DNA of 64,000 nt from Fulvivirga lutea. GTDB lineage: Bacteria; Bacteroidota; Bacteroidia; Cytophagales; Cyclobacteriaceae. The position numbers were made by a program, and so were the translations under genes. Under the pieces are notes generated by a model that searched no databases, was not told the DNA's origin, and saw only the letters and a program-made list of their open reading frames with translations. Positions 31,737 through 52,635 of the stretch are shown here, in pieces (within the stretch, counting starts at the first letter, position 1; the number at the start of each line of letters is the position of its first letter). Where the stretch lies: positions 1,283,488 to 1,347,487 of the forward strand of contig NZ_CP070608.1 of assembly GCF_017068455.1 (NCBI RefSeq). Reading direction: 5' to 3'.

Positions 31737-31812
<76 letters not shown>

Positions 31813-31816
31813 TCAG

Positions 31817-31838
31817 AGGCCCTTTTTAGGGCCTTTTT
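31817..31838 (+). terminator. Terminator of the tRNA-fMet transcript
   Basis: AGGCCC / GGGCCT stem of 6 bp with a 6-nt loop, followed by TTTTT. Confidence 0.75.
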
Positions 31839-31854
31839 CATTCGTAGTAGAAAT

Positions 31855-32631
31855 ATGCGGGTAAACACTAATAAGTTGAAAAATATTCTTGTTAAGCTGT
31901 CATTCCCTATTCTTATTAGATTAATCTACGTTATAAGGCTTGAAATTAGGCCTAATATTAATAAACCTTTTATTACCTGGAGAGAAAAACAGATTGCCTT
32001 TAGAACTGTCAGGGAAATGATTTCTAATGATTTTTCTTCCAAAGATATATCTAATTATATCGATAGTTATAGTCGCGACCAGGGAGTACTTTCAAAAATA
32101 GAATCAGACTGCCTTTCAACTATCAAAATTGTAGGTGAATATGTAAAATCTAGAAACGAAGAACGAAAATTGTTTATCAATGATTTACGATTGTATGAAA
32201 AAAGTAAGATTAAGTCATTATCAAAAATTGGCTTTAATAATGAGGTAACTTCTGTTGTAAACAATTACGTAAATAAATATGAATGCTTTGAACTTCTTAA
32301 TGATAAAAATTTAGTTACTCCAAGTAATTTATTTACTGAAGACTTAATAAAGAAAGATTATTATCTTCTCGTTAAAGACCAATCAAGATTTACATTACTT
32401 TTAATTGAATTGTTGAAGGAGAAGCTGATAATAGATCACTATGCTGAAGTATTACTTTGTCATACAACAATATGGAGTAAAAGGAGAAGTACTCAAATTA
32501 CAAAAGTCAACACCTTCTCGAAAGCAAAAAACCGTTTACTAACTGATAATTTTGAAGAAAAATATAAAGAGGAACTAAATTCACTTGCATTCCCAAAAAC
32601 TTCATGTCCAAATGACATGATGACATCATAA
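31855..32631 (+). CDS. Protein of unknown function at the tRNA-proximal edge of the accessory region
   Basis: 258 residues, basic, mainly helical, rich in Lys, Leu, Ile and Asn, without signal peptide or clear membrane helix. It starts 42 bp after the tRNA. I recognise no family; the C-terminal half has a helical pattern vaguely like RteC-type regulators of Bacteroides mobile elements, which is only a guess. The AT-rich codons differ from those of the core genes before the tRNA. It is read in the same direction as the mobilization genes. Confidence 0.5.
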   Translation: MRVNTNKLKNILVKLSFPILIRLIYVIRLEIRPNINKPFITWREKQIAFRTVREMISNDFSSKDISNYIDSYSRDQGVLSKIESDCLSTIKIVGEYVKSRNEERKLFINDLRLYEKSKIKSLSKIGFNNEVTSVVNNYVNKYECFELLNDKNLVTPSNLFTEDLIKKDYYLLVKDQSRFTLLLIELLKEKLIIDHYAEVLLCHTTIWSKRRSTQITKVNTFSKAKNRLLTDNFEEKYKEELNSLAFPKTSCPNDMMTS

Positions 32632-32671
32632 TAATACTTTATTCCCCTTGTTTGCTCAAAATCAATTTATT

Positions 32672-32941
32672 ATGAGCAATTATTTACAACTCAGTGACGA
32701 GTTCTTTGATCAAATAGCTCAAAGAATCGCACTCCTGTTAGCCCAGCAGCTGGGACAAACAGCTCCTCAACCTGAATGGTTGACTCCTCAAGAAACCATG
32801 GAAATGCTAAATGTCACCAGTCCGGTGACTATGCAAAACATTAGAGATGATGGTAGACTTAAGTTTACCTACATCACACCACGAAAGGTTCTTTATAATC
32901 GCCAATCAATTCTCGATTATCTAGAATCAAAATCAGTTTAA
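32672..32941 (+). CDS. Helix-turn-helix protein of the excisionase/HTH_17 type
   Basis: About 89 residues. WLTPQETMEMLNVTSPVTMQNIRDDGRLKF followed by RKVLYNRQSILDYL is the MerR-like winged helix of excisionase-family (HTH_17) proteins, common in Bacteroidota mobilizable elements. It may control excision or transcription of the mobilization module. The ATG at 32672 gives the natural MSNYLQLSDEFF start; eight upstream in-frame codons begin at a non-ATG codon. No integrase gene accompanies it. Confidence 0.7.
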   Translation: MSNYLQLSDEFFDQIAQRIALLLAQQLGQTAPQPEWLTPQETMEMLNVTSPVTMQNIRDDGRLKFTYITPRKVLYNRQSILDYLESKSV

Positions 32942-32958
32942 ACTAAATCTTTACAAAA

Positions 32959-33369
32959 ATGAAAAAAATCATAAAATCATATAATGATGCACATATAATC
33001 TATAACAGTGATTCAGAAATTTTCTCTACACTGATGAATGAGTCTCTTAATAAACTTGAAAACAATGCTATATCAGATTATCAGTATGGATTCTTGCAAG
33101 CGGGACTTGACATACTACAACAGGAGGGTGGTATTACTCATGAGCAAAACCAAAAGATAAGATTGAAATCGTACAATCTTAATGTTCAAGCAAAAATGGA
33201 CTTGGTTGAATTTCTGGAAAACAGTCGTGAAGGTCAAACAGATTTATCTGTAATAAACTTTGAAACTGTTAATAGGGAAATTCTTTCGAAGGAGTTCCCC
33301 AAAGCGGATAGGGTTAAAGGCCTTAATTCTGATAAAGAGCGAAATACAGATAATCAACTAGGACATTAA
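32959..33369 (+). CDS. Hypothetical protein of the mobilization module
   Basis: 136 residues, acidic, helical (for example ISDYQYGFLQAGLDILQQEGG), cytosolic. It is placed between the excisionase-like and MobC-like genes with 17- and 5-bp gaps, so it is part of their operon. I do not recognise it; a role in plasmid or element maintenance is inferred from position alone. Confidence 0.6.
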   Translation: MKKIIKSYNDAHIIYNSDSEIFSTLMNESLNKLENNAISDYQYGFLQAGLDILQQEGGITHEQNQKIRLKSYNLNVQAKMDLVEFLENSREGQTDLSVINFETVNREILSKEFPKADRVKGLNSDKERNTDNQLGH

Positions 33370-33374
33370 TTACC

Positions 33375-33638
33375 ATGAGCAAAAGAACTAAAAGAATTAT
33401 GTTCCGCTGTTCTGAAGACGAGTATGACAGCGTTAAAGATAAAGTAAACCAACTTGACACTTTTAAGACTATGGCGGGTTATGTGCGCTACAGAGCATTA
33501 GGATTTCATATACCGTCCTTTTCAATTGAACGTGCAAAGTGTTTGATACTTATTAACAACCTTTTGAGGGATTTATATGAACTACAAAGTGATGAGATTA
33601 ATGAGAGGCTAAAAACGATCAAGCAAATACTACTATGA
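33375..33638 (+). CDS. MobC-like relaxosome accessory protein (probable ribbon-helix-helix)
   Basis: 87 residues. The basic N-terminal strand TKRIMFRCSEDEYDSVKDKV followed by helices with MAGYVRYRALG resembles MobC/ribbon-helix-helix proteins that bind oriT DNA and help the relaxase. It overlaps the relaxase gene by 4 bp, the usual arrangement for these pairs. Confidence in the fold is moderate; the pairing with the relaxase is the strongest argument. Confidence 0.65.
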   Translation: MSKRTKRIMFRCSEDEYDSVKDKVNQLDTFKTMAGYVRYRALGFHIPSFSIERAKCLILINNLLRDLYELQSDEINERLKTIKQILL

Positions 33639-34411
33639 TTATAAAGGTTTTGCCATCACCGCAAAACCTCTATAAAAGTGTTGATTATCTGGTCCAAAAA
33701 GCAAAGGGAACTGAAGTTATTTATGTAAATGGCGTGCAGCCAGACTGTACCATCGGTGAAATGGTTCAGGAGTTTGAGCTTGTGGCGTCATTAGCTGGGG
33801 AAAGACTTCAGCATAAATATCTTCATTCAACTTTGGCGTTTGATGTCAACGACTTTCCAAATGGAATTACCAATGATAAAATGGTTGAATACTCACTATA
33901 CTATTTGCAGCAAATGGGATTTACGGATGAAAATCAAGTAGCAATTTTCCTTCATCATGACAGGGATGAAACCCACTATCATTGTCATGTCACCGCGAAC
34001 CGCGTTGATGTAAATGGAAAAATTGTTAGTGATTCATTTAGTAAGATACAAACATTGGAAATAATTACACAATTAGAGGATTTGCATGATTTACCTAAGC
34101 ATCAAGATAGAATAAATCAAAGAAAAGAAGATGCCTTGAACTTAGTAAGAAAGGTAGGTTACCTTGAATTAGATGAAGCGAGAAATCGGATGTACCTGGA
34201 AGAAGTACTCCGATCGGCTCGATACAAATTATATATAAATAAATACAAAAGTGATTACCGATTGACAGTTTGTGAAATGGGCAGTTTATGCAAATGGAAA
34301 GCCTTTTATGATAGAGATATATTCAACTCGGTATCACGACAAAACAAAATAAAAAATGACAAATCAAAAGAAGAAAATAAACTTGCAAGGGGCGCTGAAA
34401 AAGGCCTCTGA
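33635..34411 (+). CDS. Relaxase/mobilization nuclease (MobB/VirD2-like)
   Basis: 258 residues. The central AIFLHHDRDETHYHCHVTANRV (near residues 108-129) carries the histidine triad of relaxases, HxDxxxxHxH, for metal binding; a Tyr in the N-terminal part (YKSVDYLV) is the likely strand-transfer residue. It would nick oriT and start conjugative transfer with help from another element. It is short for the family, about the nuclease domain only, and no coupling protein or type IV secretion genes are seen, so it would be mobilizable, not self-transmissible. Confidence 0.82.
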   Translation: MIIKVLPSPQNLYKSVDYLVQKAKGTEVIYVNGVQPDCTIGEMVQEFELVASLAGERLQHKYLHSTLAFDVNDFPNGITNDKMVEYSLYYLQQMGFTDENQVAIFLHHDRDETHYHCHVTANRVDVNGKIVSDSFSKIQTLEIITQLEDLHDLPKHQDRINQRKEDALNLVRKVGYLELDEARNRMYLEEVLRSARYKLYINKYKSDYRLTVCEMGSLCKWKAFYDRDIFNSVSRQNKIKNDKSKEENKLARGAEKGL

Positions 34412-34976
34412 GGATAATGCAGAACCAAGAGAAATAGAAATAAGAGTGGTACAAGCTTTAAATGATGAGCAAATACTAGCACTTAAAGAAATCGCCAATG
34501 ACACAAATGATTCCTTCAAATTAAATCATAAACTATTATCAGGCTTTCAGGATAGGGTAATGAAAATCATAGATCAATGGACGCAATCACTAGGTCCTGA
34601 TAATTTTAGGGAGAGTATTGATGCACTGAGACAATTATGCACAGAAACAATTACTCAATTGAAAGACAGAATTGACATAAGTGAAAAATACAGCTTATTC
34701 AAAAGGAGATTTTGGACAGTCATAATGATTTCATCAGGAGTTTCAATTATTACGACTTTTTTGATAACAAGTATCTACTACAAAAAAAAGTATGGTTATC
34801 TAAAGGACAATGAATACTTATATAAGTTCGAATTATTGCAAGCCCCTGAAAATAGCAAGCTAAAAAAGACACGAGAGCAATATATGTTGTACGATAGTTC
34901 TAAAAACAGAATAAAAACGTTCGTTGATGAAAAGCAAAAACAAATTGATACCGACTATAATTTTTATTCCAAATGA
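34356..34976 (+). CDS. Hypothetical membrane protein of the mobilization module
   Basis: 206 residues: a charged helical N-terminal half, one hydrophobic helix near residues 122-143, then a Lys/Tyr-rich cytoplasmic-type tail. It overlaps the relaxase by 56 bp, so a later start is possible, but the overlap is typical for MbpB/MbpC-like accessory proteins. No family is recognised. It could tether the relaxosome to the membrane; this is inference. Confidence 0.55.
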   Translation: MTNQKKKINLQGALKKASEDNAEPREIEIRVVQALNDEQILALKEIANDTNDSFKLNHKLLSGFQDRVMKIIDQWTQSLGPDNFRESIDALRQLCTETITQLKDRIDISEKYSLFKRRFWTVIMISSGVSIITTFLITSIYYKKKYGYLKDNEYLYKFELLQAPENSKLKKTREQYMLYDSSKNRIKTFVDEKQKQIDTDYNFYSK

Positions 34977-35500
34977 TAATCATGTCTAATAATTTGACCT
35001 ATGAGAATTATGATTTAAATCCGGGTTGGATGACATTCGACTACATAAGAAACAAGGTCTATCAAATGAATTCTGAAAGATCTCATCAGGTGGGAAATAT
35101 TTTGAGGAATCATTTTAAGTCCTACGGCTATTTGCCAATCACATATATCAAGGAGTGCATTTCAATAAATGATAAATATTATAGGTATGAGTCTAACATT
35201 GATTATTCAGAGAATATAAGTTCTCACTTAGGAACACTCACGATTAGGTCGTACTATGATGAAAAGCGGTATGACCTATTGATGAAACATTATGTTTCCA
35301 TCAAAGAAGCAGCTATTCCTATGAAGTATATAGTATCAGAGGAAGACTATCCATTTGATTTTGACCTGACGGTTTGTCAAAAGTACAACCTTGTAGAAAT
35401 AGTCGATGATCTGGATGAGCACCATCTCGATTTTAATGAAAATTCTAATGATTGGTGGGATTCTGTTGAACTTGCTCTCAGGTGGAATAAGCTTTGGTGA
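34973..35500 (+). CDS. Hypothetical protein closing the mobilization module
   Basis: 175 residues, acidic, rich in Tyr and Asp, no signal or membrane helix. It overlaps the previous stop by 4 bp (ATGA); a second in-frame ATG at 34982 is also usable. I recognise no domain. A strong terminator 24 bp after its stop ends the operon, which separates it from the restriction genes. Confidence 0.55.
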   Translation: MIIMSNNLTYENYDLNPGWMTFDYIRNKVYQMNSERSHQVGNILRNHFKSYGYLPITYIKECISINDKYYRYESNIDYSENISSHLGTLTIRSYYDEKRYDLLMKHYVSIKEAAIPMKYIVSEEDYPFDFDLTVCQKYNLVEIVDDLDEHHLDFNENSNDWWDSVELALRWNKLW

Positions 35501-35662: not shown

Positions 35663-37261
35663 ATGGCCAAAGCAGACATCGATTTTGAAAAGGAACTATG
35701 GGACGCAGCTAATGAGTTGCGAGGCGCGGTTTCTGAAAATAACTATAAGAACTATATCCTCCCTCTGGTTTTTGTAAAGCATTTGAGTGAGCGCTATGAG
35801 TTAGTTCATGAAGAGTTGGATGCTTTGCTTCATGATCCTAAATCAGATTACTATACGACAGACAAAGAAGAGATCAGTTATGTATTGGAAGATCAGGATG
35901 AGTATCGTTCTCGAAACACATTTAAGATTCCTAAAACTGCCTCTTGGCAATATTTGAAGGACAATGCCGAACAGGATAACATCAAAGTGATCATTGACGA
36001 TGCTTTTGATGTGATACAAGAATTACTGACTGCTTACAATCCACAACTTAATAATATTCTGCCGAGAATTTTTGTAAGGAGTGAATTATCTCCCAAACAA
36101 ACAGGAGGTATTATTAACTTATTATCTCACCCTAAGTTTTCTGAGAAAGAAAACCCGGAGAGCGACATATTGGGCAGGATTTATGAATACTACATTGGCC
36201 GCTTTGCAATGGCCGAAGGTTCCGGTGCAGGACAATTCTTTACACCGGGTAGCATTGTAAGACTCTTGGTGGAACTTCTGGAACCCTATAAAGGCAGAAT
36301 CTTTGACCCTGCATGTGGTAGCGGTGGTATGTTTGTGCAGAGCTTGAAGTTTGTGAAAGAGCATGGAGGAAACAAAAGCGACATCTCAATCTATGGCCAA
36401 GAGATGACCGCTCAGACCCTGCGTCTTTGTTTGATGAACCTCATGCTCAGAGAGCTGTCGTTTGACATCAAACTAGGTAACTCTTTACTGGATGACAAAT
36501 TCCCCGACCTTAAAGCGGACTTTATCATAGCCAATCCACCTTTTAATGTGAGTAACTGGCATCCCGAAGATTTACCCGATGGTGATCCTCGTTTGTTTGG
36601 GCCTAAGGAAGAATTTACAACGGATGGTAATGCCAACTATATGTGGATGCAAACCTTCTGGCATCATTTGAGTGATACCGGTACAGCCGGAATTGTAATG
36701 GCCAACGGTGCCATGACCTCTAACACTAAGGGCGAAAAAAGTGCCCGACAGCATATGGTAAACAATAGCATGGTAGATGCCATAGTGCGTTTACCCGATA
36801 AGCTGTTTTTAACCACCGGCATACCGGCTTGCTTATTTATACTGAGCAAAAACCGCGATGGCAGAGACGGCATACACCGTGAGCGCACCAATGAAATACT
36901 GTTTATTGATGCCTCTAAAATGGGCACCATGGCCAGCCGTAAGCTTCGGGTATTTTCTGATGATGACGTTAAGAAAATAGGAGATACTTATCATACATGG
37001 CGTACAAACCCCCTCCAAGGAGAGGACAAAGGGGTGGGATACGAAGACACCCCGGGCTTCTGCAAATCAGCTACGCTTGAAGAAGTACAAAAGCAAGACT
37101 ACAAACTGACTCCGGGAATCTATGTGGGCACAGAAGAAGCTGATGCCGATGATGAACCCTTTGAAGGAAAAATGGAGCGTTTGAAAACACAATTGATGGA
37201 GCAGTTTGAGGAGGGGGATAGATTGAAAAAAGCTATCCAATTTAACTTGAATAAAATATAG
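35663..37261 (+). CDS. hsdM: Type I restriction-modification methyltransferase subunit
   Basis: 532 residues, an N6-adenine DNA methyltransferase. The SAM motif FDPACGSGGMFV is at residues 214-225 and the catalytic NPPF at 291-294. The N-terminal ~150 residues are the HsdM helical domain (LRGAVSENNYKNYILPLVFVKHLSERY). With HsdS it methylates the host target and, with HsdR, forms the restriction complex. It is complete and of normal length. It is first in the operon; the KAP-type gene follows after 11 bp, which is where hsdS usually stands. Confidence 0.95.
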   Translation: MAKADIDFEKELWDAANELRGAVSENNYKNYILPLVFVKHLSERYELVHEELDALLHDPKSDYYTTDKEEISYVLEDQDEYRSRNTFKIPKTASWQYLKDNAEQDNIKVIIDDAFDVIQELLTAYNPQLNNILPRIFVRSELSPKQTGGIINLLSHPKFSEKENPESDILGRIYEYYIGRFAMAEGSGAGQFFTPGSIVRLLVELLEPYKGRIFDPACGSGGMFVQSLKFVKEHGGNKSDISIYGQEMTAQTLRLCLMNLMLRELSFDIKLGNSLLDDKFPDLKADFIIANPPFNVSNWHPEDLPDGDPRLFGPKEEFTTDGNANYMWMQTFWHHLSDTGTAGIVMANGAMTSNTKGEKSARQHMVNNSMVDAIVRLPDKLFLTTGIPACLFILSKNRDGRDGIHRERTNEILFIDASKMGTMASRKLRVFSDDDVKKIGDTYHTWRTNPLQGEDKGVGYEDTPGFCKSATLEEVQKQDYKLTPGIYVGTEEADADDEPFEGKMERLKTQLMEQFEEGDRLKKAIQFNLNKI

Positions 37262-37272
37262 CAGTATCCGAC

Positions 37273-40200
37273 ATGACGACCTCAACTAAGAGCACTAAAT
37301 CCTCAAATAGCGATCAAATGACTCTAAAGGAATTCAAAAAGGCCTTAATTGAGTTTGCTATTACATGTATTCCAGAGCAATATGAAGATATATTAGTTAT
37401 TCCTGATACGAGTGAGGAGAACTACATGTATCTAACTACAGTGGAGCGATCGGATATAATTGATTTTATTGATATGCATTTTAACAGGAGTTCTTTATCT
37501 GTACAATTGTCAAATGGAAAAGATATTTCGTCACTAAAAGTTCTAGATGCATTTAATTTCTTAAAAGAATATAATAATAGGTTGGCTTCTGTTCCTTTTA
37601 AAAATAAAGATATTGAGAAGTTACTTGATATAGAAAAGGCTATTCTACAGAACAACATAGAGAAGGTTTTTAGTGACCGTAAAAGCATCATGAAGGATTT
37701 TTTAGAACTCTATATTGATCAGAATAAAAAGAATGAAAAAGTTTATAGACTATCTCAAGTAGCTAGGAAACTAAACGTAGGAATTAAAACAATTATTGAT
37801 TTTTTTGGTGATCGCGGCATTGCACTAGAAAGTTCACCTAATACAAAAATTAGTCAATCCTTATATAATGAATTATCTAAGGAATTTGGTGAAGAATATA
37901 GCCAAAGTACGGATAAATCTGGAGATAACAGTAGTGTAGAATTGGCTTTGGAAAAGTTAATACAGGATCCGGAAATAAAATTTTTTGCAGCAGGTCATAT
38001 TTGGGATGGTAATGACCAATTTAAGAACTTTATTTCAAATTCAATTTGGGAAAATGGCCATGTCAAAAATGATACTAAGGCAGTAAACAGAGCTAAATTT
38101 AAAGATATTATTATCTTAAAATCTACATTTCAAAAATCTGGAAAAGGTTGGTTTAGAGCAAAAGCTATAGGTTTAGTAGTCCGTAATTATTTGGACGGCC
38201 ATAGGCTTTGTGTGAATTGGTTTACTTTTAATGAGCCAATTGATATACCCACAGGCTCTCAGTATAGAAGAACATTTCAAACAATAGAACTAGCATATTT
38301 AAGGCAAATATTATATGAAATATTAAAGACATATCCTGATCTCTTCGAGAAATTAAATGAATTAGAGAAACAAGAAAATAATGGACACCTATATTTTGAA
38401 TCTGTAAATGACCACACTTATGCTGAAGATGGAAAAAGTACAGAGACTAATCAAACAGAAAAAAAGTATTGGTGGTACAGTGATAACTTCTCAAATGATT
38501 ATTTGAAAGTAATTCACAATTCAGAAGAAATAAATGTTCCATTGTATCCAACTGAAATTTATGAATTTTCAAGTGGAGATATGGTTATTTGCTTTGATAT
38601 TCAGGATCAGAATATTTTAGCTATAGCAGAAATCATAGATTATACCACTGACCTAGTTATACTTAAATTTGATTTGATACCCTACTTATCAATTAATAGT
38701 AAGAGTCTGGAGGGTATTTTCGAATCACTGCAAATTGGGGGCGAATTAAATGTTCGATTTCAATCGATATCAAGAACTATATTTGATCAAATAGTAAAAC
38801 AAACTGAGTCTAATTCAAATGAGGAAATAATTGAGAGACAGGACTACCAGGCACCAATTAATCACGATGGTATTACTGATACCAAAGACTTACTGGACAT
38901 TGAAAATGATGTAAGGTCGTTTGCGTTGCTTTTAGCAGCTAGAGAGGTAAAACCACCTATTGCTATTGCTCTTTTTGGTAGATGGGGCTCTGGAAAGAGC
39001 TTCTTTATGAAGCACCTGCAAAAAAGAATAAATGAATTATCGAAACATCAGGGTTTTTTGGTGGATCCAAGTGATGAACCAGTTAATCCTAAGCGAAAAG
39101 AAAAGGACAATTTCTGCACTGGTATAGCTCAAATAGAATTTAATGCTTGGTCTTACCTGGATGCTAATCTGTGGGCTGGTTTGGTGACCAGTATTTTTGA
39201 AAAATTAAATGAATACATAACAGATACCACGAAAAGTGGAGTTGCACAGCTGAGAGTGCAAGAAAAACTAAAGGAGAGGCTAGTATCATTACAACGAGAA
39301 AAGCTTACAAAAGAAGAAAGGCTGAAAAATCTGATTGATCTAAAACATAGCTATCAGATTGAAAGCAAAAATCTTAAAGAGTCAATAAAAACCAACTTTA
39401 CTAAACATATTTTAAATCATATTGATGCCAATGATGAGCTTCGAGCAGCTCATGAAGCTATAGAAAAAGATGAATTACTATCCAGTTTAGAAAAAAAGCT
39501 AAAACTGGATGAGTTAAAAAAAGAAGCTCAGGTATTCAATAGTTTTATTAGAAATGTCAAAGCAACACCTGGCATAAAAAAGTATGTAATATATGCTACC
39601 GTTTCGGTGCTTTTAGGAATAGTCCTTTATCAATTTATGGGTTTTGAATATTCTTGGGCATCCTTTCTTCCTATTCTTACAGGATTTGGAATCGATATCA
39701 AAGCACTAAAAAAACGCTATTCTCAAGTGAAATCCTTCATTACTAAGTTTAATGAAGTGGTCGGAGAAAGTGTAGAGCTTCAGGAGGAAGTTCAAAAACA
39801 TGAAGCGTTAGTTACCGAATCTGAGCAACAAATTGAAGATGCTAAGCAACAAATTGATCAAATAAGCTCCCGAATCGAAGATTTTGAGCAATATATGGTT
39901 AATGAGATTCATCAAGAGACTATTAAAGATTTTATCCAATCACGTGCCGATCATGCTGATTATAAATCTAAACTTGGTATTGTCTCCATCATTAGAAAAG
40001 ACTTTGAAACGTTAAGTCAATTGTTTTACCAAGCCGATAAAGCAAATGGAGAAATTGAAGATGAAGAGTTAAGAAAAGACAGGGAGTTTATAAATAACCA
40101 GTTCAAAACAGGTAAAAACCTTGACAGGATTATTTTGTATATCGATGATTTGGATCGGTGCTCCGATGAAAAGGTGTTGGAAGTGATTCAGGCAGTACAT

Positions 40201-41148
40201 TTGTTAATGGCATTTCCCCTATTTAATGTAGTAGTTGGTGTAGATAAGCGATGTGTTAGAAATGCCCTTTTGTTAAAGACTAAGTTAGAGTACCTGAAAA
40301 TCGCTCCAATTGCCGATGTTAAGAAGTTGGGAATTAACATGGTTGAACCGGGCGATTATCTAGAAAAGATATTTCAGATTCCCTTTGAATTAAAAGACCC
40401 TGGAAACTCCGATGTTGAAAGGTTTATTGATCATCTGTTACAAGATCAAATTGAAACAGAAATTCATGAAGAGGCTGAAACCGAAATTGATACAGCTCCC
40501 GAGATCGAAACTAAAGAAGAAGTCGAAGAGAAATCGGAGAGTGAAGAGGTGGAAGCTTATGATCAACCTATGTTCAAAAGAATTAAGCAGGTTGAAGAAA
40601 AAATGGAGGTACCTGAATATATCGAGCCAATCACAACAAAAGAGCCTGAAGCATTGGTCTCTTCAGCGCCTGAAAGCTTAATGTTAAGTGAACACGAGTT
40701 TAAAGCAATAAAGGAGATACTTTATCTGGTTGGTAGTACTCCACGTACAATCAAGCAATACATAAATATTTACCGAATTATTAGGGCTCATAAACGACCA
40801 GAAACAAACAAAGCTTTTGATGATAATGATCATCTGGCAATCATGTTTTTGCTTGCAATGAAAATCGGTATGTTCAAAAAATACTCTAATGAGCTATTTA
40901 AAAGCCTCAAACTAAATTCGAATAATACATTGGGTGCAGTTATTAATTTCTCATTTCGAATGGAGGACACTTCTGAGGATTTGCGAAATTTCAAAAATCA
41001 AATAGAAGACCTTAATGGCCTATCCACCATAAAACCTTTGCTTGATATGATTTGTGAAGTACTTTGTGAGCATATTGATTTTGTAAGCCGTTTTTCATTT
41101 GGAGAAGAAATCGATAAGGTAGAATTGGTAAAAGAAGAAAAAGCCTAA
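37273..41148 (+). CDS. KAP-type P-loop NTPase with IF2-N-like and EVE/PUA-like N-terminal modules
   Basis: 1291 residues. Residues ~1-150 are helical and unknown. Residues ~157-205 (RLSQVARKLNVGIKTIIDFF) resemble the IF2-N module of Bacteroidota IF-2. Residues ~236-335 (GHIWDGNDQ..IWENG, then KAIGLV) and ~397-530 (KKYWWYS) resemble the two EVE/PUA-like modules of McrB-type proteins that read modified DNA bases. The KAP ATPase has Walker A GRWGSGKS at 569-576, a coiled coil, a membrane hairpin near 771-805, and Walker B IDDLDR at 957-962. An acidic linker (~1058-1100) and a helical tail follow. It is likely a membrane-tethered defence ATPase. Domain calls other than KAP rest on reading motifs by eye. 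Confidence 0.75.
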   Translation: MTTSTKSTKSSNSDQMTLKEFKKALIEFAITCIPEQYEDILVIPDTSEENYMYLTTVERSDIIDFIDMHFNRSSLSVQLSNGKDISSLKVLDAFNFLKEYNNRLASVPFKNKDIEKLLDIEKAILQNNIEKVFSDRKSIMKDFLELYIDQNKKNEKVYRLSQVARKLNVGIKTIIDFFGDRGIALESSPNTKISQSLYNELSKEFGEEYSQSTDKSGDNSSVELALEKLIQDPEIKFFAAGHIWDGNDQFKNFISNSIWENGHVKNDTKAVNRAKFKDIIILKSTFQKSGKGWFRAKAIGLVVRNYLDGHRLCVNWFTFNEPIDIPTGSQYRRTFQTIELAYLRQILYEILKTYPDLFEKLNELEKQENNGHLYFESVNDHTYAEDGKSTETNQTEKKYWWYSDNFSNDYLKVIHNSEEINVPLYPTEIYEFSSGDMVICFDIQDQNILAIAEIIDYTTDLVILKFDLIPYLSINSKSLEGIFESLQIGGELNVRFQSISRTIFDQIVKQTESNSNEEIIERQDYQAPINHDGITDTKDLLDIENDVRSFALLLAAREVKPPIAIALFGRWGSGKSFFMKHLQKRINELSKHQGFLVDPSDEPVNPKRKEKDNFCTGIAQIEFNAWSYLDANLWAGLVTSIFEKLNEYITDTTKSGVAQLRVQEKLKERLVSLQREKLTKEERLKNLIDLKHSYQIESKNLKESIKTNFTKHILNHIDANDELRAAHEAIEKDELLSSLEKKLKLDELKKEAQVFNSFIRNVKATPGIKKYVIYATVSVLLGIVLYQFMGFEYSWASFLPILTGFGIDIKALKKRYSQVKSFITKFNEVVGESVELQEEVQKHEALVTESEQQIEDAKQQIDQISSRIEDFEQYMVNEIHQETIKDFIQSRADHADYKSKLGIVSIIRKDFETLSQLFYQADKANGEIEDEELRKDREFINNQFKTGKNLDRIILYIDDLDRCSDEKVLEVIQAVHLLMAFPLFNVVVGVDKRCVRNALLLKTKLEYLKIAPIADVKKLGINMVEPGDYLEKIFQIPFELKDPGNSDVERFIDHLLQDQIETEIHEEAETEIDTAPEIETKEEVEEKSESEEVEAYDQPMFKRIKQVEEKMEVPEYIEPITTKEPEALVSSAPESLMLSEHEFKAIKEILYLVGSTPRTIKQYINIYRIIRAHKRPETNKAFDDNDHLAIMFLLAMKIGMFKKYSNELFKSLKLNSNNTLGAVINFSFRMEDTSEDLRNFKNQIEDLNGLSTIKPLLDMICEVLCEHIDFVSRFSFGEEIDKVELVKEEKA

Positions 41149-41190
41149 TGCCCAACAATTAGAAAATACATAGCTGGTGAGATATTTTAG
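41148..41190 (+). pseudogene. Remnant of an hsdS 5' end between the KAP and OLD genes
   Basis: The KAP stop reads CCTAATGCCCAACAA (41144-41158), identical over 15 bases to the junction at the true hsdS start (43103-43117), including the TAATG stop/start overlap. The next 14 bases match at 9 positions and all five differences are transitions; the frame is M-P-N-N-stop because TGG (Trp) became TAG. CTGGTGAGATATTT further on looks like a frame-shifted LGEIF, a usual HsdS continuation. It is too short to code for anything. Confidence 0.7.
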
Positions 41191-41313
41191 AATTAAAGTA
41201 CAATATAGGCTTAAAAAGTTATGCAGAATCTATCTGACAAATACCTGAATATTGGACTATAAGACAAATCTTTAACTTATTAAGTTGAAATTATTTTTAA
41301 TTAAGAACGGATT

Positions 41314-43107
41314 ATGAAATTAACTCAGATAGAAATCGAAGATTTTAAGTCCATTAAAAAGCTTAGATGGAAATTGGATCAAAAGATGATTTGTCTTGTT
41401 GGTCAAAATGAAAGTGGTAAGTCCAATTTAATAGAAGTACTGCAATTTATAAAGCCATCAACAATTGAAGATTTGCGTTATGAAGTTCATACAAGAAGAA
41501 GTAGTGATAGGTACGTGCACAATGAGCTTCCTCTGATAAAAGCTATATACCATCTAGATAGCGAGGTAAAAAAAGATTTAGAATTTAAGCTTAAACCCCA
41601 TAACCCAAATGGAAAATCGTTATCAAAATTCACTTCATTTGTTGTAGAATCGGCTCAAAATGAAGATGAGTTTAGCTTAAATTACTTTTTATCTGAAAAT
41701 GATGAATTGGACATACGAGACATCGCTCAAAATCAAACTCAAATTGATGAATGCATAAAAATTATAGAAGATAAGTTAACGGAAATTAGAATTTTAAAGG
41801 ATTCTGAATTAGGAACTTTCACAGCCACATTAGCTAATATCAAATCTTCGGTAGCGGCTGGAACATCTCTTTTTAAACTAATGCAACTTACTGATGTAAG
41901 GGATTTTGCCAAAATTCCCTCCGCTATTCCTCAGTTAAGGAACTACCTTAGAGGGGTTAATAATAGGTTAAACAATAGATTTGTTCAAAAATACTATTCT
42001 CAAGACCCCTCAGTAAGATTTGAGATTATACATGATTCTGGAAGTCTATATCTTGAAATTCATGATAATACTGATGCCCAGTATACTATAGAAGAAAGGA
42101 GTGACGGTTTCAAATACTTCTTTGGGCTGCTAATTGAAGTCGCTACTTTAGGTGGTAGATCAAATAATGTGATATTCGTTTTGGATGAACCAGGTGCAAA
42201 GCTTCATCCAAGTGGTCAACGAGATCTATTACGTTATTTTGAAGAGCTTAGCCTTAATTTTGGAATTATTTACACGACTCATTCACCGTTTTTAATAAAT
42301 CGACTTTACCCAAATAGAGTTCGAGTCATTGAAAAAAATAAAACAGCCGGGACTTTATTTAAGGAAAAAGGGTTTTCAAAAAATTGGAGACCATTACGAA
42401 GTGCTTTAGGACTAACATTGAGTGATAGTTTTTACTATTCAGATAAAGCCTTGATCGTGGAAGGTCCTGAAGACATAATTTATATATCTGCCCTGATAGA
42501 CTATTACAATCAAACAAATAAAGTACAGGTCAATACTGACCTATTTTCAATTATTGATGCTGGTGGGGAAGGAAACCTTCCTGCAATGGTTCAAATAATG
42601 ATAGATGAAGAAAGACCAACCACAGTATTGATGGACTCGGACTCGCAGGGAACATATAATAGAATTGATAAGAAAAAGAAAGGACTTAAATCTGGGATGC
42701 TTGTGGTAACTCAGATTAATGACTTTAAAAAAGATGCCGTATCTATTGAAGATTTGCTACCATCTAAGTTGCTAGTAACTGCATTTAATAGTTGCTTGAA
42801 GGAATTGAAGGAGGAGGGGAGTTTGAAATTAGTTGAGGATAAAAATGAGTCGATCGATGAGAAAAGATTAACCTCTTTTTCCAGATACAAAAATGACTTG
42901 GCCCCATTTGTTAAATCCAACTTTTCAAACCCTAATAAAACTGATGATGAATGGGAAAGAGAAAGAGTACCTATTTCTAAAGTTGGGATAGCCAGGCACT
43001 TTGAAATACATCTTAATAAATGTTTGGCTGAAAATGTTGATATTAAATCTCCAGAATCACTTAGGCTGATAAAGACTTTAATTGAAAAACTTGGATTAAA
43101 ACCCTAA
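41314..43107 (+). CDS. OLD-family ATP-dependent endonuclease (AAA + TOPRIM)
   Basis: 597 residues. Walker A GQNESGKS is at 30-37, Walker B VLDEPG around 289-294, and a C-terminal TOPRIM nuclease domain has Glu383 in LIVEGPED and the D441-S-D443 pair in VLMDSDSQG. This is the class of single-chain OLD nucleases also seen as GajA of Gabija, but no UvrD-like GajB is present. It starts 165 bp after the KAP gene, in a region holding an hsdS remnant, and overlaps hsdS by one base (TAATG). It probably cuts DNA in response to infection, and looks like a later insertion in the operon. Confidence 0.85.
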   Translation: MKLTQIEIEDFKSIKKLRWKLDQKMICLVGQNESGKSNLIEVLQFIKPSTIEDLRYEVHTRRSSDRYVHNELPLIKAIYHLDSEVKKDLEFKLKPHNPNGKSLSKFTSFVVESAQNEDEFSLNYFLSENDELDIRDIAQNQTQIDECIKIIEDKLTEIRILKDSELGTFTATLANIKSSVAAGTSLFKLMQLTDVRDFAKIPSAIPQLRNYLRGVNNRLNNRFVQKYYSQDPSVRFEIIHDSGSLYLEIHDNTDAQYTIEERSDGFKYFFGLLIEVATLGGRSNNVIFVLDEPGAKLHPSGQRDLLRYFEELSLNFGIIYTTHSPFLINRLYPNRVRVIEKNKTAGTLFKEKGFSKNWRPLRSALGLTLSDSFYYSDKALIVEGPEDIIYISALIDYYNQTNKVQVNTDLFSIIDAGGEGNLPAMVQIMIDEERPTTVLMDSDSQGTYNRIDKKKKGLKSGMLVVTQINDFKKDAVSIEDLLPSKLLVTAFNSCLKELKEEGSLKLVEDKNESIDEKRLTSFSRYKNDLAPFVKSNFSNPNKTDDEWERERVPISKVGIARHFEIHLNKCLAENVDIKSPESLRLIKTLIEKLGLKP

Positions 43108-44384
43108 TGCCCAACAACTGGAAGACATATAAACTTTCTGAACTAACCAATAAGATTGGAAGTGGTGCAACACCAAGAGGCGGCAAAGAAGCTTATAAGG
43201 ACAGTGGTATTTCGTTGATTAGGAGTCAAAATGTTCTAGATTTTTCTTTCTCTACAAATGGTCTTGCCTTTATAGATGAAAAGCAGGCAGAAGGATTGAA
43301 AAATGTTACTGTTGAGTCTCGTGATGTTTTATTGAATATTACAGGTGATTCAGTTGCAAGAGTTTGTCAAGTACCTGAAAAATGGCTTCCTGCAAGAGTG
43401 AACCAACATGTTGCAATTGTTAGAGCAAATAGAGAAAAGCTTTCTCCTGAATTTTTAAAATATTCATTACTCTCAAAAGCTAACAAGGAATATTTATTGA
43501 CTTTAGCTAGTGCAGGTGCAACAAGAAATGCCATAACTAAATCAATGATTGAAGATTTTGAAATCTCAATTCCTGACTTAAAAGAACAAAAAGCCATCGC
43601 CTCCATTCTCTCTTCTCTGGATGACAAAATAGAGCTCAACCTCCAAATGAATAAAACCCTAGAGGAAATGGCCATGACCATGTACAAACATTGGTTTGTA
43701 GATTTTGGCCCTTTTAAAGATGGCAAGTTTATTGACTCTGAATTAGGCCCTATTCCTGAAGGGTGGGAGGTACTTCCATTATCAGAAATAACGTCTAAAA
43801 TTACTGATGGCGCTCATCATAGTCCCAAATCGGTAGAGAATGGCTATCCAATGGCTTCTGTTAAGGATATGACAGATTGGGGATTTACGATTGATACATG
43901 TAGAAAAATTAGCGATAATGATTATCAAAAACTGGTTGCTCAAGGATGTCAACCACGAAAGGATGATATTTTAATAGCAAAAGATGGCAGTTACTTAAAG
44001 CATGCTTTTGTAGTTGAAAGGGATTTGGATATTGCATTACTTTCCTCAATTGCTATTTTGAAGCCAAACTTCAAAATGCACCCGCATCTAATTAATCTGT
44101 ATCTAAAGCTAGACGAGGTAAAGGAACGGATGAAATCCATCGTGTCTGGTGCCGTAATTCAACGAATCGTACTTAAAGATTTTAGAAAATTTTCAGTTCT
44201 TGTTCCTGAAATAAAAGTACAAAAGGAGGTTTTAGAGACAATAAATCCTCTTATTTCTCAATGTTGGTTAAACAATAGTGAAAACCAAACCCTCACCAAC
44301 CTCCGAGACACCCTACTCCCCAAACTCATCAGTGGAGAAGTGGGCGTAAAAGATGTGGAACAAAAAGTGGCTGAAGTGTTATGA
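43107..44384 (+). CDS. hsdS: Type I restriction-modification specificity subunit
   Basis: 425 residues with the two-fold HsdS plan: TRD1 from MPNNWKTYKLSEL, a central conserved helix region (KEQKAIASILSSLDDKIELNLQMNKTLEEMAMTMYKHWF, near 157-195), TRD2 from PEGWEVLPLSEIT, and the C-terminal repeat helix (LRDTLLPKLISGEV). The two TRDs set the bipartite target, which cannot be predicted here. It overlaps OLD by 1 base and hsdR by 4 bases. It is intact; a decayed second hsdS start lies at 41148. Confidence 0.93.
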   Translation: MPNNWKTYKLSELTNKIGSGATPRGGKEAYKDSGISLIRSQNVLDFSFSTNGLAFIDEKQAEGLKNVTVESRDVLLNITGDSVARVCQVPEKWLPARVNQHVAIVRANREKLSPEFLKYSLLSKANKEYLLTLASAGATRNAITKSMIEDFEISIPDLKEQKAIASILSSLDDKIELNLQMNKTLEEMAMTMYKHWFVDFGPFKDGKFIDSELGPIPEGWEVLPLSEITSKITDGAHHSPKSVENGYPMASVKDMTDWGFTIDTCRKISDNDYQKLVAQGCQPRKDDILIAKDGSYLKHAFVVERDLDIALLSSIAILKPNFKMHPHLINLYLKLDEVKERMKSIVSGAVIQRIVLKDFRKFSVLVPEIKVQKEVLETINPLISQCWLNNSENQTLTNLRDTLLPKLISGEVGVKDVEQKVAEVL

Positions 44385-47383
44385 CATCCATGCAAGAACT
44401 CACTGTACAGAAGGCGGCCATCGAGTGGTTGCAATCCCTCGGATACACAAATCAGGAAGGCAATAGCCTCACTCGTGATTTAAAAAAGGTAGTGCTGGAG
44501 GAGTCTTTACTAAATTTTCTAAAGCGCACCTATCCCGATGTGCCTTCTACAGCCTTACATGAAGCTCTATCTGCCTTTACGCAGCATGAGGGCATGGATG
44601 TCGATCATCGGAACCAGGATTTCCATCGCAAAATGACACAAGGCGTTTCCATTTCATGGAAGGATGCTCAGGGAAAGGAATATGCCAAGCATATCTATCC
44701 CCTCAATTATGAAGAGCCTGAAGCCAATGAGTTTATCTGTGCAGATGAAGTCACTATCATCGGTAAAAACACCCGCAGAACAGATTTGCTCATTTACATC
44801 AATGGCCTGCCATTGGTGGTGTTTGAGTTCAAAAACATGTTCGATGCTGAGGTTGGTGTAGACAATGCCCATCGTCAGATCGGCCATTACCTGCAAGACA
44901 TCCCGCAGCTGTTTGATTACAATGCCATCACCATCCTGTCAGATGGTAGAGAGGCGTTGCACGGCATGTATGGTGCTTCATTCAAATGGTTTACCCCATG
45001 GAAGAGTTTGTATGGAGAAGAGATAGTGAACAAAGCAGAGCTGCAATTAGAAACGTTGCTCAAAGGCTTATTCCCAAAGGCTACGCTACTCAATTACCTG
45101 AAGAATTTCATCTTTCATGAAGACCATAACGGCAAGATCATCAAGAAAGGGGCTAAGTACCATCAGTATTGGGGCATTACCAAGGCCGCGCAAAGCGCAC
45201 TCAAAAACGTAAAGCCTTTGGGTGATGGTAGGCTTGGGGTCATTTGGCATACGCAGGGTTCCGGCAAAAGTATTTCCATGGCCATCCTTACCGGCATATT
45301 GCGGTCGCTGCCACAGTTAAAAAATCCAACCATTGTCATTCAGGTAGACCGTTCAGATTTAGATCAGCAACTGTATGAAAACTTCGTGCTTTGCAAAGAC
45401 CTGGTAGGTGAGGTGCAACATGCCGAAACCACCGATGAGCTGAGAACCTTGTTGAGTACTGATGGAGGGGGTGTAATTTTTACCACCATTGAGAAGTTTA
45501 GGCTCAAGGAATTGGAAGAAGGCAAAGAGGTGTCTCATCCCGTTTTATCAGAACGTTATAACCTTATTGTAATGGCTGATGAAGCACACAGAACCCAATA
45601 TGGTTTTAAAGATGGTGGTTTCGCACAAAATATAAGAATAGCCTTGCCCAATGCATCCTTTATTGGGTTTACCGGCACACCCGTAGATAGTAAAGGAGCA
45701 GACACGGAACTAGTGTTTGGAGATACCATCCACACCTATGACATCAAACAAGCAGTAGAAGATGGAGCCACGGTGCCTATTTATTACGAACCTAAGATGG
45801 TGCCTCTGAATATTAAAGCAGAATACGCCAAAGAGCTGGAGGCCATTGAAGAAGGTGAAGAAGATGATGTGAAGGGCGTATGGGCAGCAGTAGAAGATGC
45901 CGCAGGTGCTGAAGATCGAGTAAATACAGTAGCCAATGATATTCTCACACATTTTAAGGCCAGAATCGCCTCGTTAGATGGTAAAGCCATGGTGGTGTGT
46001 ATGAGCAGGAGAAATTGTGTAAAGATGTATGATGCGCTTACCGCATTGCCAGACTGCCCGGAGGTTGCAGTAATAATGACCAGTAATATTGGTAAAGATC
46101 CTGAAGCATGGAATCCGCACGTCCGCACTAAAGATAGCATGGAGGCAATTAAAAAGCGTTTCCGCACACCTGAAGATCCATTGAAAATGGTGATTGTTCG
46201 GGATATGTGGCTTACCGGTTTTGACGCACCCTGTGTGCATACCATGTATGTAGACAAAATCATGAAAGGTCATAACCTGATGCAGGCCATTGCGCGGGTA
46301 AACAGGGTATTTGAAGATAAACCTAATGGTTTGGTGGTCGATTTTATAGGTATCTCAGGGTTCTTAGCCGAAGCCACCAAGAAATATACAGGCTCAGGAG
46401 GTGCAGGAAAACCCACGGTAGATATTGATGCAGCCGTGGAGTTATGTTTGGAGCAATTTGAGAAGGTAAAGGATTTGTGTGGTGACTTTGATTTGGAAGA
46501 GATCAAAGCCATGTCTGATGCTGAGCAGTTAAGCTGGTCTAATAGTTTGGTGGATAAGCTGCTCAAATCAGATACCGTAACGGATGAATTTTTAAGAGAA
46601 GAGAAGAAGCTCTCTGAGCTAGTGGCCATGACTAATTCTGACAAACGCATTTGGCCAATTCAGGAGGAAGTGGGAATGATTCAGAAAATTAGGGATGTCA
46701 TCAGGAAGATAAAATATCCGCCAGGTGCGAGGCGAGCAAAGAATGATCGCATCAAAGACCTCATTAGTAAATCCTTAGAGTCGCACAAGATTGTTGATTT
46801 GGCTGCCATGTACGATCTGGATAAGATTGATATTTCCATTATTGATGATTCCTTTCAGGCCATTGTTAAAGAAAAGGGTGGAGAGAATATTAAGATTGAA
46901 CTTCTAAGGAGAATCATCAATGATGAGATCAAGGTGAGGATGGTGAAGAACATTAAGAAAATGACCAGCCTGAAGGAGGAGTTAGAAAAAGTGTTGGGCA
47001 ACTACCATAAAAACAGCTTAGATTCCATTGCGGCTATTAAGCATTTGATAGATATAGCCAATGAGTTCAAAAATGATGATAAAAGAACCAAAGAGCTGGG
47101 CTTGTCTGAAGATGAATTGGCCTTTTATGATCTCCTGTCTGCCAATCAATCAATCATAAATGAAGCGGGCCCAATTCAGGATTTAGTGCATGGGGTAGTG
47201 GCATCAGTCAAGAAGAACCTTCAACTCGACTGGACCAAGAAAGAAGATGCCAAGGCAGCCATTCGCCTAGCAGTGAAGAAAGAGCTGAAAGGGAAAGTGC
47301 CGTTTTCAGCATTAGATAAAATACTTCAAGAAGTAATCGAACAAGCCGAAGGCCAGTATAAAGATTGGCCGATGATGGGGTAA
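44381..47383 (+). CDS. hsdR: Type I restriction endonuclease/translocase subunit
   Basis: 1000 residues. The N-terminal PD-(D/E)xK nuclease has Asp135 (RRTDLL) and E149-F-K151 (VVFEFKN). The SF2 DNA-translocase motor follows with TQGSGKS at 291-297, DEAH at 400-403, GFTGTPVD and the later MWLTGFDAPCVHTMYVDK and IARVNRVFEDKPNG motifs. Complete. It ends 3 bp before the tail of a convergent gene with no terminator between them. Codons look richer in G and C than in the KAP and OLD genes, in line with a separate history. Confidence 0.95.
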   Translation: MTSMQELTVQKAAIEWLQSLGYTNQEGNSLTRDLKKVVLEESLLNFLKRTYPDVPSTALHEALSAFTQHEGMDVDHRNQDFHRKMTQGVSISWKDAQGKEYAKHIYPLNYEEPEANEFICADEVTIIGKNTRRTDLLIYINGLPLVVFEFKNMFDAEVGVDNAHRQIGHYLQDIPQLFDYNAITILSDGREALHGMYGASFKWFTPWKSLYGEEIVNKAELQLETLLKGLFPKATLLNYLKNFIFHEDHNGKIIKKGAKYHQYWGITKAAQSALKNVKPLGDGRLGVIWHTQGSGKSISMAILTGILRSLPQLKNPTIVIQVDRSDLDQQLYENFVLCKDLVGEVQHAETTDELRTLLSTDGGGVIFTTIEKFRLKELEEGKEVSHPVLSERYNLIVMADEAHRTQYGFKDGGFAQNIRIALPNASFIGFTGTPVDSKGADTELVFGDTIHTYDIKQAVEDGATVPIYYEPKMVPLNIKAEYAKELEAIEEGEEDDVKGVWAAVEDAAGAEDRVNTVANDILTHFKARIASLDGKAMVVCMSRRNCVKMYDALTALPDCPEVAVIMTSNIGKDPEAWNPHVRTKDSMEAIKKRFRTPEDPLKMVIVRDMWLTGFDAPCVHTMYVDKIMKGHNLMQAIARVNRVFEDKPNGLVVDFIGISGFLAEATKKYTGSGGAGKPTVDIDAAVELCLEQFEKVKDLCGDFDLEEIKAMSDAEQLSWSNSLVDKLLKSDTVTDEFLREEKKLSELVAMTNSDKRIWPIQEEVGMIQKIRDVIRKIKYPPGARRAKNDRIKDLISKSLESHKIVDLAAMYDLDKIDISIIDDSFQAIVKEKGGENIKIELLRRIINDEIKVRMVKNIKKMTSLKEELEKVLGNYHKNSLDSIAAIKHLIDIANEFKNDDKRTKELGLSEDELAFYDLLSANQSIINEAGPIQDLVHGVVASVKKNLQLDWTKKEDAKAAIRLAVKKELKGKVPFSALDKILQEVIEQAEGQYKDWPMMG

Positions 47384-51629: not shown

Positions 51630-52635
51630 TTAGCTACCCTAACTTACACCCTAGCTGCCGTACCCTAGACCCTAGCTCACACCCTAGCTACCGAACCCTA
51701 GACCCTAGCCAGCTACCCTAGCAAACCCTAGCAAGCAGAGCAAGACATCTTAGCTGGCAACCCTAGCAAGACCTAGCAAGCAGAGCAAGACATCTTAGCT
51801 GGCAACCCTAGCAAGACCTAGCTAGCAGAGCAAGACATCTTAGCTAGCAACCCTAGCAAGCCCTAGCTAGCAGAGCAAGACATCCTAGCTAGCCACCCAG
51901 CAAGCCTTTGCTAGCAGAGCAAGTCATCCTAGCTAGCAACCCTAGCAAGCCCTAGCAAGCAGAGCAAGACATCTTAGCTGGCAACCCTAGCAAGCCCTAG
52001 CTAGCAGAGCAAGACATCCTAGCTAGCCACCCCAGCAAGCCTTTGCTAGCAGAGCAAGACACCCTAGCTAGCAACCTTAGCAAACCCTGGCTAGCAGAGC
52101 AAGATACCCTAGCTAGCCACCCTAGCAAGCCTTTGCTAGCAGAGCAAGACATCTTAGCTAGCAACCCTAGCAAGCCCTAGCTAGCAGAGCAAGACATCCT
52201 AGCTAGCCACCCAGCAAGCCTTTGCTAGCAGAGCAAGTCATCCTAGCTAGCAACCCTAGCAAGCCCTAGCAAGCAGAGCAAGACATCTTAGCTGGCAACC
52301 CTAGCAAGCCTTTGCTAGCAGAGCAAGACATCTTAGCTAGCAACCCTAGCAAGCCCTAGCTAGCAGAGCAAGACATCCTAGCTAGCCACCCCAGCAAGCC
52401 TTTGCTAGCAGAGCAAGACACCCTAGCTAGCAACCTTAGCAAACCCTGGCTAGCAGAGCAAGATACCCTAGCTAGCCACCCTAGCAAGCCTTTGCTAGCA
52501 GAGCAAGACACCCTAGCAGACCCTAGCTAAGACCCTGGCTACTGAACCCTAGACCCTAGCTAGCTACCCTAGCTAACACACTAGCTACCGAACCTTAGAC
52601 CCTAGCCAGCTACCCTGGCAAACCCTAGCTAGCTT
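51630..52635. repeat. 45-bp tandem array rich in CTAG/GCTAGC, non-coding
   Basis: The motif GCAGAGCAAG recurs 18 times, first at 51735 and last at 52498, spaced 45 bp except twice 44 bp. Between these, units are built of CCTAGCAAG, CTAGCTAGC and CATCCTAGCTAGC-type words. Every unit has TAG in all three forward frames, and CTAG being its own complement closes the reverse frames too, so it is not coding. The outer ~100 bp on each side are looser and contain a shared 49-bp segment (51684-51732 and 52581-52629, two differences). Confidence 0.92.

Follow-up and report, generated by a model that had tools for sequence, protein, structure and literature searches.

The window analysed here, a 64,000-nucleotide stretch of Fulvivirga lutea (contig NZ_CP070608.1, positions 1,283,488 to 1,347,487), carries a Type I restriction–modification (RM) operon with two additional genes between hsdM and hsdS. 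All five genes lie on the + strand. The N6-adenine methyltransferase subunit gene hsdM (35663–37261; 532 aa; Pfam N6_Mtase and HsdM_N) is followed by a KAP P-loop NTPase gene (37273–41148; 1291 aa; PF07693), a gene for an OLD-family ATPase–TOPRIM nuclease (41314–43107; 597 aa; Pfam), the specificity subunit gene hsdS (43107–44384; Methylase_S) and the restriction subunit gene hsdR (44381–47383; 1000 aa; HSDR_N, SWI2_SNF2, T1R_D3-like and T1RH-like_C). KAP and OLD are referred to below as cargo genes 1 and 2. This order, proposed in a sequence-only reading of the DNA, agrees with the coordinates and the Pfam families, as do its spacings: 11 bp between hsdM and KAP, an overlap of 1 base between OLD and hsdS, and one of 4 bases between hsdS and hsdR. 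Absent from that reading was a gap of 165 bp between KAP and OLD (41149–41313), so the five genes do not form one evenly tight run.

The presence in one operon of HsdM, an HsdS with two target recognition domains (TRDs), and an HsdR with a nuclease and an SF2 motor identifies the system as Type I, and judged by profile the enzyme looks complete. PADLOC Type I models matched the operon at 2.1e-145 (MTase_I), 3e-136 (Specificity_I) and 2.1e-243 (REase_I). The claim that extra nuclease and ATPase defence genes sit inside this hsd operon was borne out. We propose that the hsdM–hsdS junction, bordered on the left by the hsdM 3′ end and on the right by the hsdS 5′ end, is probably an exchangeable slot for defence cargo, and that the window holds two stacked units, KAP with the relic of a former hsdS and OLD with the present hsdS.

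Related loci were fetched from genome contigs by HsdM similarity alone, using an alignment of five HsdMs and blind to the cargo. The first relatives found by HsdM search included pSD15 of Microscilla, whose HsdM is 96% identical over 362 residues; behind it come a truncated KAP distinct from that of the window, genes for RelE and ImmA/IrrE, and a broken hsdS. The junction held another KAP in G459, and a HigB-like gene plus an HTH–ImmA/IrrE gene in G011. The pSD15 locus (L063, 7562–14017) is a decayed operon copy on a mobilizable plasmid, with the hsdM frame broken after residue 362, an IS21 element nearby and no hsdR recognised on this stretch. The analyses below use the best 80 of 175 confirmed loci, with HsdM 63–87% identical to that of the window. 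As far as record titles tell, these 80 loci are from Bacteroidota. An hsdS was seen in 71 of them; the other nine, cut or without hsdS, stand outside the counts. Loci L097 and L098 are identical, and both are included in the 71, one being dropped for the TRD linkage and HsdM tree tests; L078 and L104 seem to duplicate G459 and G011 (L043, L044).

The junction between hsdM and hsdS was found to be filled in nearly all of these loci. A gap of at least 300 bp separates hsdM from hsdS in 68 of 71 loci (median 2335 bp), versus 14 of 67 for hsdS and hsdR (median −4; Fisher P 3e-21). An open reading frame (ORF) of at least 80 aa is present in 67 of the 71 slots, and in 42 of 66 the first cargo ORF starts no more than 25 bp from the stop of hsdM. 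Among 60 definable hsdS starts, 22 read TAATG or TGATG, which permits a 1-nt overlap of stop and ATG, in a count that did not check the frame of the preceding stop start by start. In the empty allele L088, the hsdM stop and the hsdS ATG overlap by 1 nt, the same register as that of OLD and hsdS in the window. For EcoKI, the available part of one article describes a one-base overlap of hsdM and hsdS with translational coupling (PMC3510504).

The cargo comprises 124 ORFs of at least 80 aa in 72 clusters, 119 of them on the operon strand. A Pfam scan covered 42 of the clusters, mostly through one member each, and names were extended to the other cluster members. Counted by slot (n = 71), it contains KAP (16, in two clusters), Schlafen/AlbA with HATPase (8), AbiEi with a weakly AbiEii-like partner (6), OLD (4, plus a fifth in L118 that was missed by the start call and stays outside the counts), ImmA/IrrE (4), nSTAND3 (3), TIR (3), AAA_15 (2), Fic (2), RhuM (2, one a 97-aa piece) and, on the opposite strand, DRT2 (2). 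SIR2–TIR, AbiC, HD-CE, Ppl, NACHT, metallophosphatase–STAND and others occur in single slots, and the slot KAP of L094 matches PifA at 6.6e-49. A family from a defence and toxin list that includes ImmA/IrrE is present in 51 of 71 slots; L118 would give 52. No Methylase_S was detected in the 40 cargo proteins scanned, where a divergent, unrecognised hsdS could pass for cargo. An adaptor domain common to all cargo, which would have hinted at a shared contact with the Hsd proteins, was rejected after a pairwise phmmer search across clusters, which may miss short or remote domains and returned four similarities at E < 1e-3 (KAP–KAP, ATPase–ATPase and two short others).

Several slot proteins gave no Pfam match (L116 11602–13920 and L124 8514–10847) or weak matches under the curated cut-offs (L142 5122–7125 and L075 4924–6450); we list these four as candidate new defence families. 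Separately, the HsdM of L044 (11536–13647) and L104 (10001–12112) is interrupted after residue 458 by an in-frame insertion of roughly 170 aa, which by eye looks like a small nuclease-type ORF, presumably DUF559-like, with PPF/LLQGE-like repeats at its borders. At the same place, the HsdM of the window has a short extra stretch (PLQGED).

The gap between KAP and OLD contains a relic of a former hsdS 5′ end (41144–41219, + strand). Across loci hsdS opens with conserved sequence, and the relic is joined to the stop codon of KAP in the register that also links the living hsdS to OLD. An exact 15-mer is found at the relic and at 43103–43117, its sole two matches in the window even with 2 mismatches allowed (0.20 expected). 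A repeat finder independently returned the same pair (repeat D3, 34 nt at 82%), and about 74 nt of the relic, which contains stop codons, align at 70% identity with hsdS of L122 and L124. A start matrix was built from 60 hsdS starts, with 12 of 72 loci lacking a definable start omitted, and was scored on 70 internal cargo stops. Four of them, those of the window (21.2), L068, L070 and L072, reached 19.7 or more, and the remainder scored −8.9 or less. The 99.9th percentile of the background of 56,868 other stops was −0.4, and the single background stop scoring at least 15 proved to be where a second hsdS of L093 begins. Acceptance of the hsdS relic in the window rests on three results: the shared 15-mer, the register of the junction and the matrix test.

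L068, L070 and L072 each carry, after the hsdS relic, a remnant of the hsdM 3′ end, with a length and identity of 49 aa at 73%, 39 aa at 95% and 49 aa at 96%, respectively. Further hsdM 3′ relics were found in L086, where the copy adjoins hsdS directly, and in L093, L138 and L142, giving 7 of the 72 slots searched at a threshold of E ≤ 1e-3 without a separate background control; L138 and L142 fall outside the hsdS-relic test. We interpret the relics as the apparent remains of units of the form hsdM-3′–cargo–hsdS-5′ that were joined beside an older unit.

The relic also bears on the two cargo genes of the window, which the sequence-only reading had taken as a pair that might recur in the same five-gene order elsewhere. 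KAP and OLD occur together in none of the 71 related slots seen whole; the slots with KAP (16 of 71) lack OLD, and those with OLD (4 of 71, plus L118) lack KAP, leaving the window as the only place where the pair was seen, an outcome that the sequence-only reading had itself named as a refutation. Association with the slot beyond chance stood up for KAP. Of the 71 slots, 8 contain a relative of the window KAP (E below 1e-90, small database), versus 8 of about 487 other whole genomes (E ≤ 1e-20; Fisher P 0.0003), a rough comparison given that slots and genomes are different kinds of sample. The genomes came from two samples overlapping by at least 5 genomes, with relatives at E 1e-20 in 7 of 97 (one via the EVE segment only) and 1 of 394. 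Relatives of the window OLD were scarcer, at 1 of 97 genomes at E 1e-20. Peptide patterns found no KAP in the genome contig collection, and neither OLD nor HsdM was found in the viral contig collection. The hsdS-start relic lying between the two genes speaks for their separate arrival; by itself it does not give the order in which they came.

Cargo differs even between closely related operons. Ten locus pairs have hsdM genes with a nucleotide identity of 90% or more and known cargo on both sides. In nine of these pairs the two loci have no cargo cluster in common; the exception is the identical pair L097/L098. For example, L130 and L131 have no common cargo, with hsdM at 93.1% and hsdR at 91.6% identity over 2.0 kb. 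On the HsdM tree of 71 loci, the largest cargo family requires at least 53 changes (shuffled mean 56), and the 12 loci with a cluster-0 KAP, window included, call for 9 (shuffled mean 11.4). A tree of 19 of the 29 KAP proteins (omitting five of cluster 5, pSD15, L034, L069, L079 and L090) intermixes slot and non-slot KAPs, starred branches forcing three or more changes, which indicates that the slot is supplied from a general pool.

The recognition domains of hsdS turn over too, independently of the cargo. By DNA similarity, the gene was divided into replaceable TRD1 (43107–43583, +) and TRD2 (43772–44279, +) regions and, between them, a central conserved region of 188 bp (43584–43771, +), a possible recombination arm. 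Common cargo was found in 6 of 99 locus pairs sharing TRD1 (5.7 expected, P 0.5) and in 3 of 78 pairs sharing TRD2 (4.6 expected, P 0.84); a link between cargo and the neighbouring recognition domain was rejected.

The OLD protein is encoded by an intact ORF and matches AAA_15 and OLD-like_TOPRIM (34 bits, cut-off 23.2). Its TOPRIM domain (PF20469) covers residues 375–443 (42436–42642, +). The other five slot OLDs aligned are 21–49% identical to it, and the residues that the family is expected to have in its ATPase and TOPRIM parts do not vary among the six, E383, D387, D441, D443 and E479 included. The ABC-type ATPase together with a TOPRIM domain bearing the catalytic acidic residues places the protein in OLD class 1; the top PADLOC model was Old (1.3e-27). 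The closest relative found (49%) occupies the slot of L108 (Xanthomarina), which has no KAP, and precedes an hsdS with a TRD1 76% identical to that of the window. This suggests that OLD and TRD1 arrived together, in a single case without general linkage across loci. OLD is probably an ATP-gated nuclease that would act on DNA when a phage disturbs DNA repair or restriction.

The KAP ORF is also intact, and its assignment to the KAP family rests on a match to PF07693 at 98 bits (cut-off 20) over residues 550–1172; the NTPase domain (38920–40788, +) includes a hydrophobic stretch read by eye. The nearest relatives are about 31–36% identical, both in slots and outside. Descent from a common ancestor with the KAP of Roseivirga ehrenbergii (L069) was rejected, since only the EVE segment is strongly similar (41% over 185 aa) and the KAP part reaches 22%. 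Weak PADLOC matches were obtained to QatA (2e-10) and PifA (3e-7). A second KAP gene of the same genome (L034, 7333–10518) is not closely similar to that of the window.

Two further domains precede the NTPase domain. Residues 153–217 (37729–37923, +) read as a copy of the N-terminal domain of the host's own translation initiation factor IF2, being 46% identical to part of a 902-aa ORF of the same genome; this ORF reads as IF2 (infB), and its neighbour as NusA, by eye and without a family search. No other protein of the cargo set matched this segment in the pairwise search, and the copy could be a captured bait domain. Residues ~230–369 (37960–38379, +) may form an EVE/YTH-like PUA fold. The label EVE-like, already given in the sequence-only reading, received no Pfam match, but EVE and YTH structures head the matches of the predicted fold. 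In an AlphaFold model that was poor as a whole (mean predicted local distance difference test score, pLDDT, 58.5), this segment had per-block values of 79–95. The top Foldseek matches were PH1033, YTH, THYN1 and 2eve (prob 0.66–1.00, E 1.7e-3 to 9.4e-2, template modelling score to target 0.36–0.50), with none of 269 matches at E ≤ 0.001; we take PH1033 and 2eve to be EVE proteins. Of the 11 other slot KAPs in cluster 0, eight contain the segment. KAP is probably a membrane-associated NTPase that would sense infection through its EVE-like and IF2-like domains and shut the cell down.

Directly upstream of hsdM (31737–35500) are a tRNA-Met, genes without Pfam match and a MobA/VirD2-type relaxase gene (33635–34411), perhaps a mobilizable element. 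A repeat search between 31650 and 64000 revealed no repeat of the tRNA-Met end that would bound such an element. When 11 flanking genes were searched in 85 loci, matches were obtained only for the relaxase (weak, two loci) and a GTPase gene (one locus). Farther downstream in the window, a 45-bp unit rich in CCTAGCTAGC is repeated about 21 times (51704–52633), flanked by ACCCTAGCT repeats from 51636.

The exchangeable slot is the explanation we favour for the occupancy of the junction, the turnover and strand bias of its cargo, the register of the junctions and their fossils. The conserved hsdM, hsdS centre and hsdR would act as common flanks, and cargo would be swapped by homologous recombination between related operons; the same flanks would allow the two recognition domains to be replaced separately from the cargo. 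A new unit would sometimes be added beside the old one, and hsdS-5′ and/or hsdM-3′ scraps would remain. The Type I enzyme would form the first barrier, and the cargo would mostly consist of autonomous second-line defences that gain expression from the operon promoter and the translationally coupled junction. Layered defence of this kind, restriction followed by KAP and OLD, would be plausible. Loss of an RM system is generally costly to the cell, and this cost may help to retain the cargo. More tentatively, and with rather less than even confidence, we suggest that the junction serves as a platform dedicated to capture: defence genes would move from one restriction operon to another in units with hsdM-3′ and hsdS-5′ sequence at their borders, be exchanged or stacked there, take over the hsdM–hsdS translational coupling and be kept by the addictive RM enzyme, making the RM operon a chassis for modular immunity, with the IF2 copy of KAP as bait for phage attack on translation.

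Several observations weigh against the slot interpretation. The 80 loci are the best of 175 that matched; 20 of the 71 slots hold no listed family or no ORF, and 30 of the 72 clusters lie outside the Pfam scan. The HsdM tree is a quick one in which 21 of 77 inner branches are starred, and 9 of 200 shuffles were as low as the 53 changes of the largest cargo family; turnover is thus slightly below random, and some inheritance of cargo remains. L068 and L070, with hsdM 89.7% identical, both carry an AbiE-like pair, and exchange of cargo together with TRD1 was not seen as a rule. In the window, a plain alignment of the gap with hsdS starts scored 41 at best, against a maximum of 40 and a mean of 28.7 in 60 shuffles, and was not decisive on its own. 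No hsdM 3′ relic is detectable in that gap, where 53 of 60 shuffles scored as well, and this candidate was rejected. Additional genes also occur in more distant Type I operons of Bacteroidota, where most lie in the hsdS–hsdR gap: in 17 loci with HsdM about 43–51% identical (L046–L062; 16 from the head of one match list and one from another, not a random draw), gaps of at least 300 bp were present in 9 of 15 hsdM–hsdS and 12 of 13 hsdS–hsdR junctions, three of the latter gaps being partly filled by further hsdS genes and two loci showing no hsdS. Taken with the near loci, this indicates that Bacteroidota Type I operons often hold extra genes, whose preferred place depends on the subfamily.

Other explanations of the same locus were considered. 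Defence genes cluster in general, and the junction might be a tolerant landing place without any link to the operon, as its mixed cargo, drawn from a pool also found elsewhere, would allow; the specific position (hsdM–hsdS, not hsdS–hsdR), the co-orientation of 119 of 124 ORFs and the often tight junctions make this passive clustering rather unlikely. The close joining of cargo to hsdM and hsdS, seen in many loci, would suit a guard model, in which the Hsd complex silences the cargo and releases it when a phage blocks or evades restriction, on the precedent of PrrC in a Type IC operon (PMC3710099, PMC12707154). Set against this model are the lack of a cargo-wide domain (short or remote ones may have escaped the four-hit cross-cluster comparison) and the presence in the slot of DRT2, an autonomous system on the opposite strand (two loci, one scanned). 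These points render a guard relation unlikely as a general rule; for some of the cargo, a PrrC-like relation is possible by analogy.

That KAP and OLD form a two-gene module, a joint back-up layer of the RM system, would fit their shared strand and operon and their intact ORFs of defence-related families, but with a dead hsdS start between them, each gene found without the other in related slots and the closest OLD lacking a KAP neighbour, we hold this to be very unlikely. Equally little credence, if not slightly less, goes to integron-like site-specific cassettes with the hsdS 5′ sequence as attachment site. Discrete units bounded by hsdM-3′ and hsdS-5′ sequence, and the order of hsdS 5′ relic and hsdM 3′ relic in L068, L070 and L072, would be consistent with a circularised unit; yet the relic ends vary (~35 nt in L070, ~200 nt in L072), L086 has only an hsdM copy before hsdS, the sole recombinase-like match in the scanned cargo is a Y1_Tnp under the cut-off in L081, and neither an integrase among the five operon genes nor constant attachment sites mark an integron-like array. 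Finally, the operon could be seen as a divergent MADS-like system, given PADLOC matches to mad2 (1.5e-42), mad5 (2.2e-41), mad3 (3e-17) and, weakly, mad8 (0.019). The MADS gene set runs from mad1 to mad8, and only these four had counterparts among the matches listed; with Type I models scoring far better and a full HsdR present, the probability of this assignment is negligible.

Together, these results turn a single odd operon into a rule, namely that the hsdM–hsdS place predicts the position of defence genes in one Bacteroidota restriction subfamily. The slot probably includes unnamed defence genes and would offer a targeted route to new antiviral genes. The junction relics provide direct evidence of how defence genes accumulate at one place, a matter for which clustering is usually the sole argument. 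Toxins inside hsd operons are already known; no published description of an hsdM–hsdS slot or of junction relics was found, which is weak evidence of absence, as coverage of subscription journals and bioRxiv was thin and most matches were judged from listings.

Among known systems, the window OLD shares the ATPase and TOPRIM domains of the class 1 nucleases such as P2 Old, and differs in lying inside an hsd operon. Its neighbours are KAP and hsdS, not the UvrD-like helicase of class 2 (Gabija). PARIS (AriA–AriB) does not fit either, with no AriB beside it and both the fused AriAB (6e-16) and AriA models outscored by Old. KAP has the NTPase domain of PifA and QatA, to which it adds the EVE-like and IF2 N-domains. 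In QatABCD, qatB, qatC and qatD stand beside qatA; the window KAP is instead flanked by hsdM and OLD, and no other qat genes are present. EVE domains next to hsd genes have been proposed as readers of modified bases in the available portion of one study, whose main text has no mention of KAP (PMC7641849); in the window, the EVE-like domain is fused to KAP. In Staphylococcus aureus islands, hsdS-adjacent content varies and includes an Avast gene, and transfer followed by recombination was proposed (PMC12829572); in the sections available, those genes are placed near hsdMS and not within its hsdM–hsdS junction, and fossil junctions go unmentioned.

The closest precedents are PrrC, in the EcoprrI Type IC operon, and RloC, in which a defence gene with an ATPase likewise sits inside an hsd operon; PrrC is the tested case of a toxin embedded in an RM operon. 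Excerpts of the literature show that such embedding and repeated displacement were proposed in 2012–2013 (PMC3506569, PMC3710099), that a Type I review treats PrrC as embedded (PMC3874165) and that a 2025 review covers accessory genes coupled to RM (PMC12707154). Neither KAP nor OLD belongs to the PrrC/RloC anticodon nucleases, in which an ABC ATPase is fused to a HEPN nuclease; their Pfam matches at E ≤ 0.1 include no HEPN family. What sets the present subfamily apart from PrrC and RloC is a single junction filled in 68 of 71 loci, a cargo of 72 clusters and the relics of stacking.
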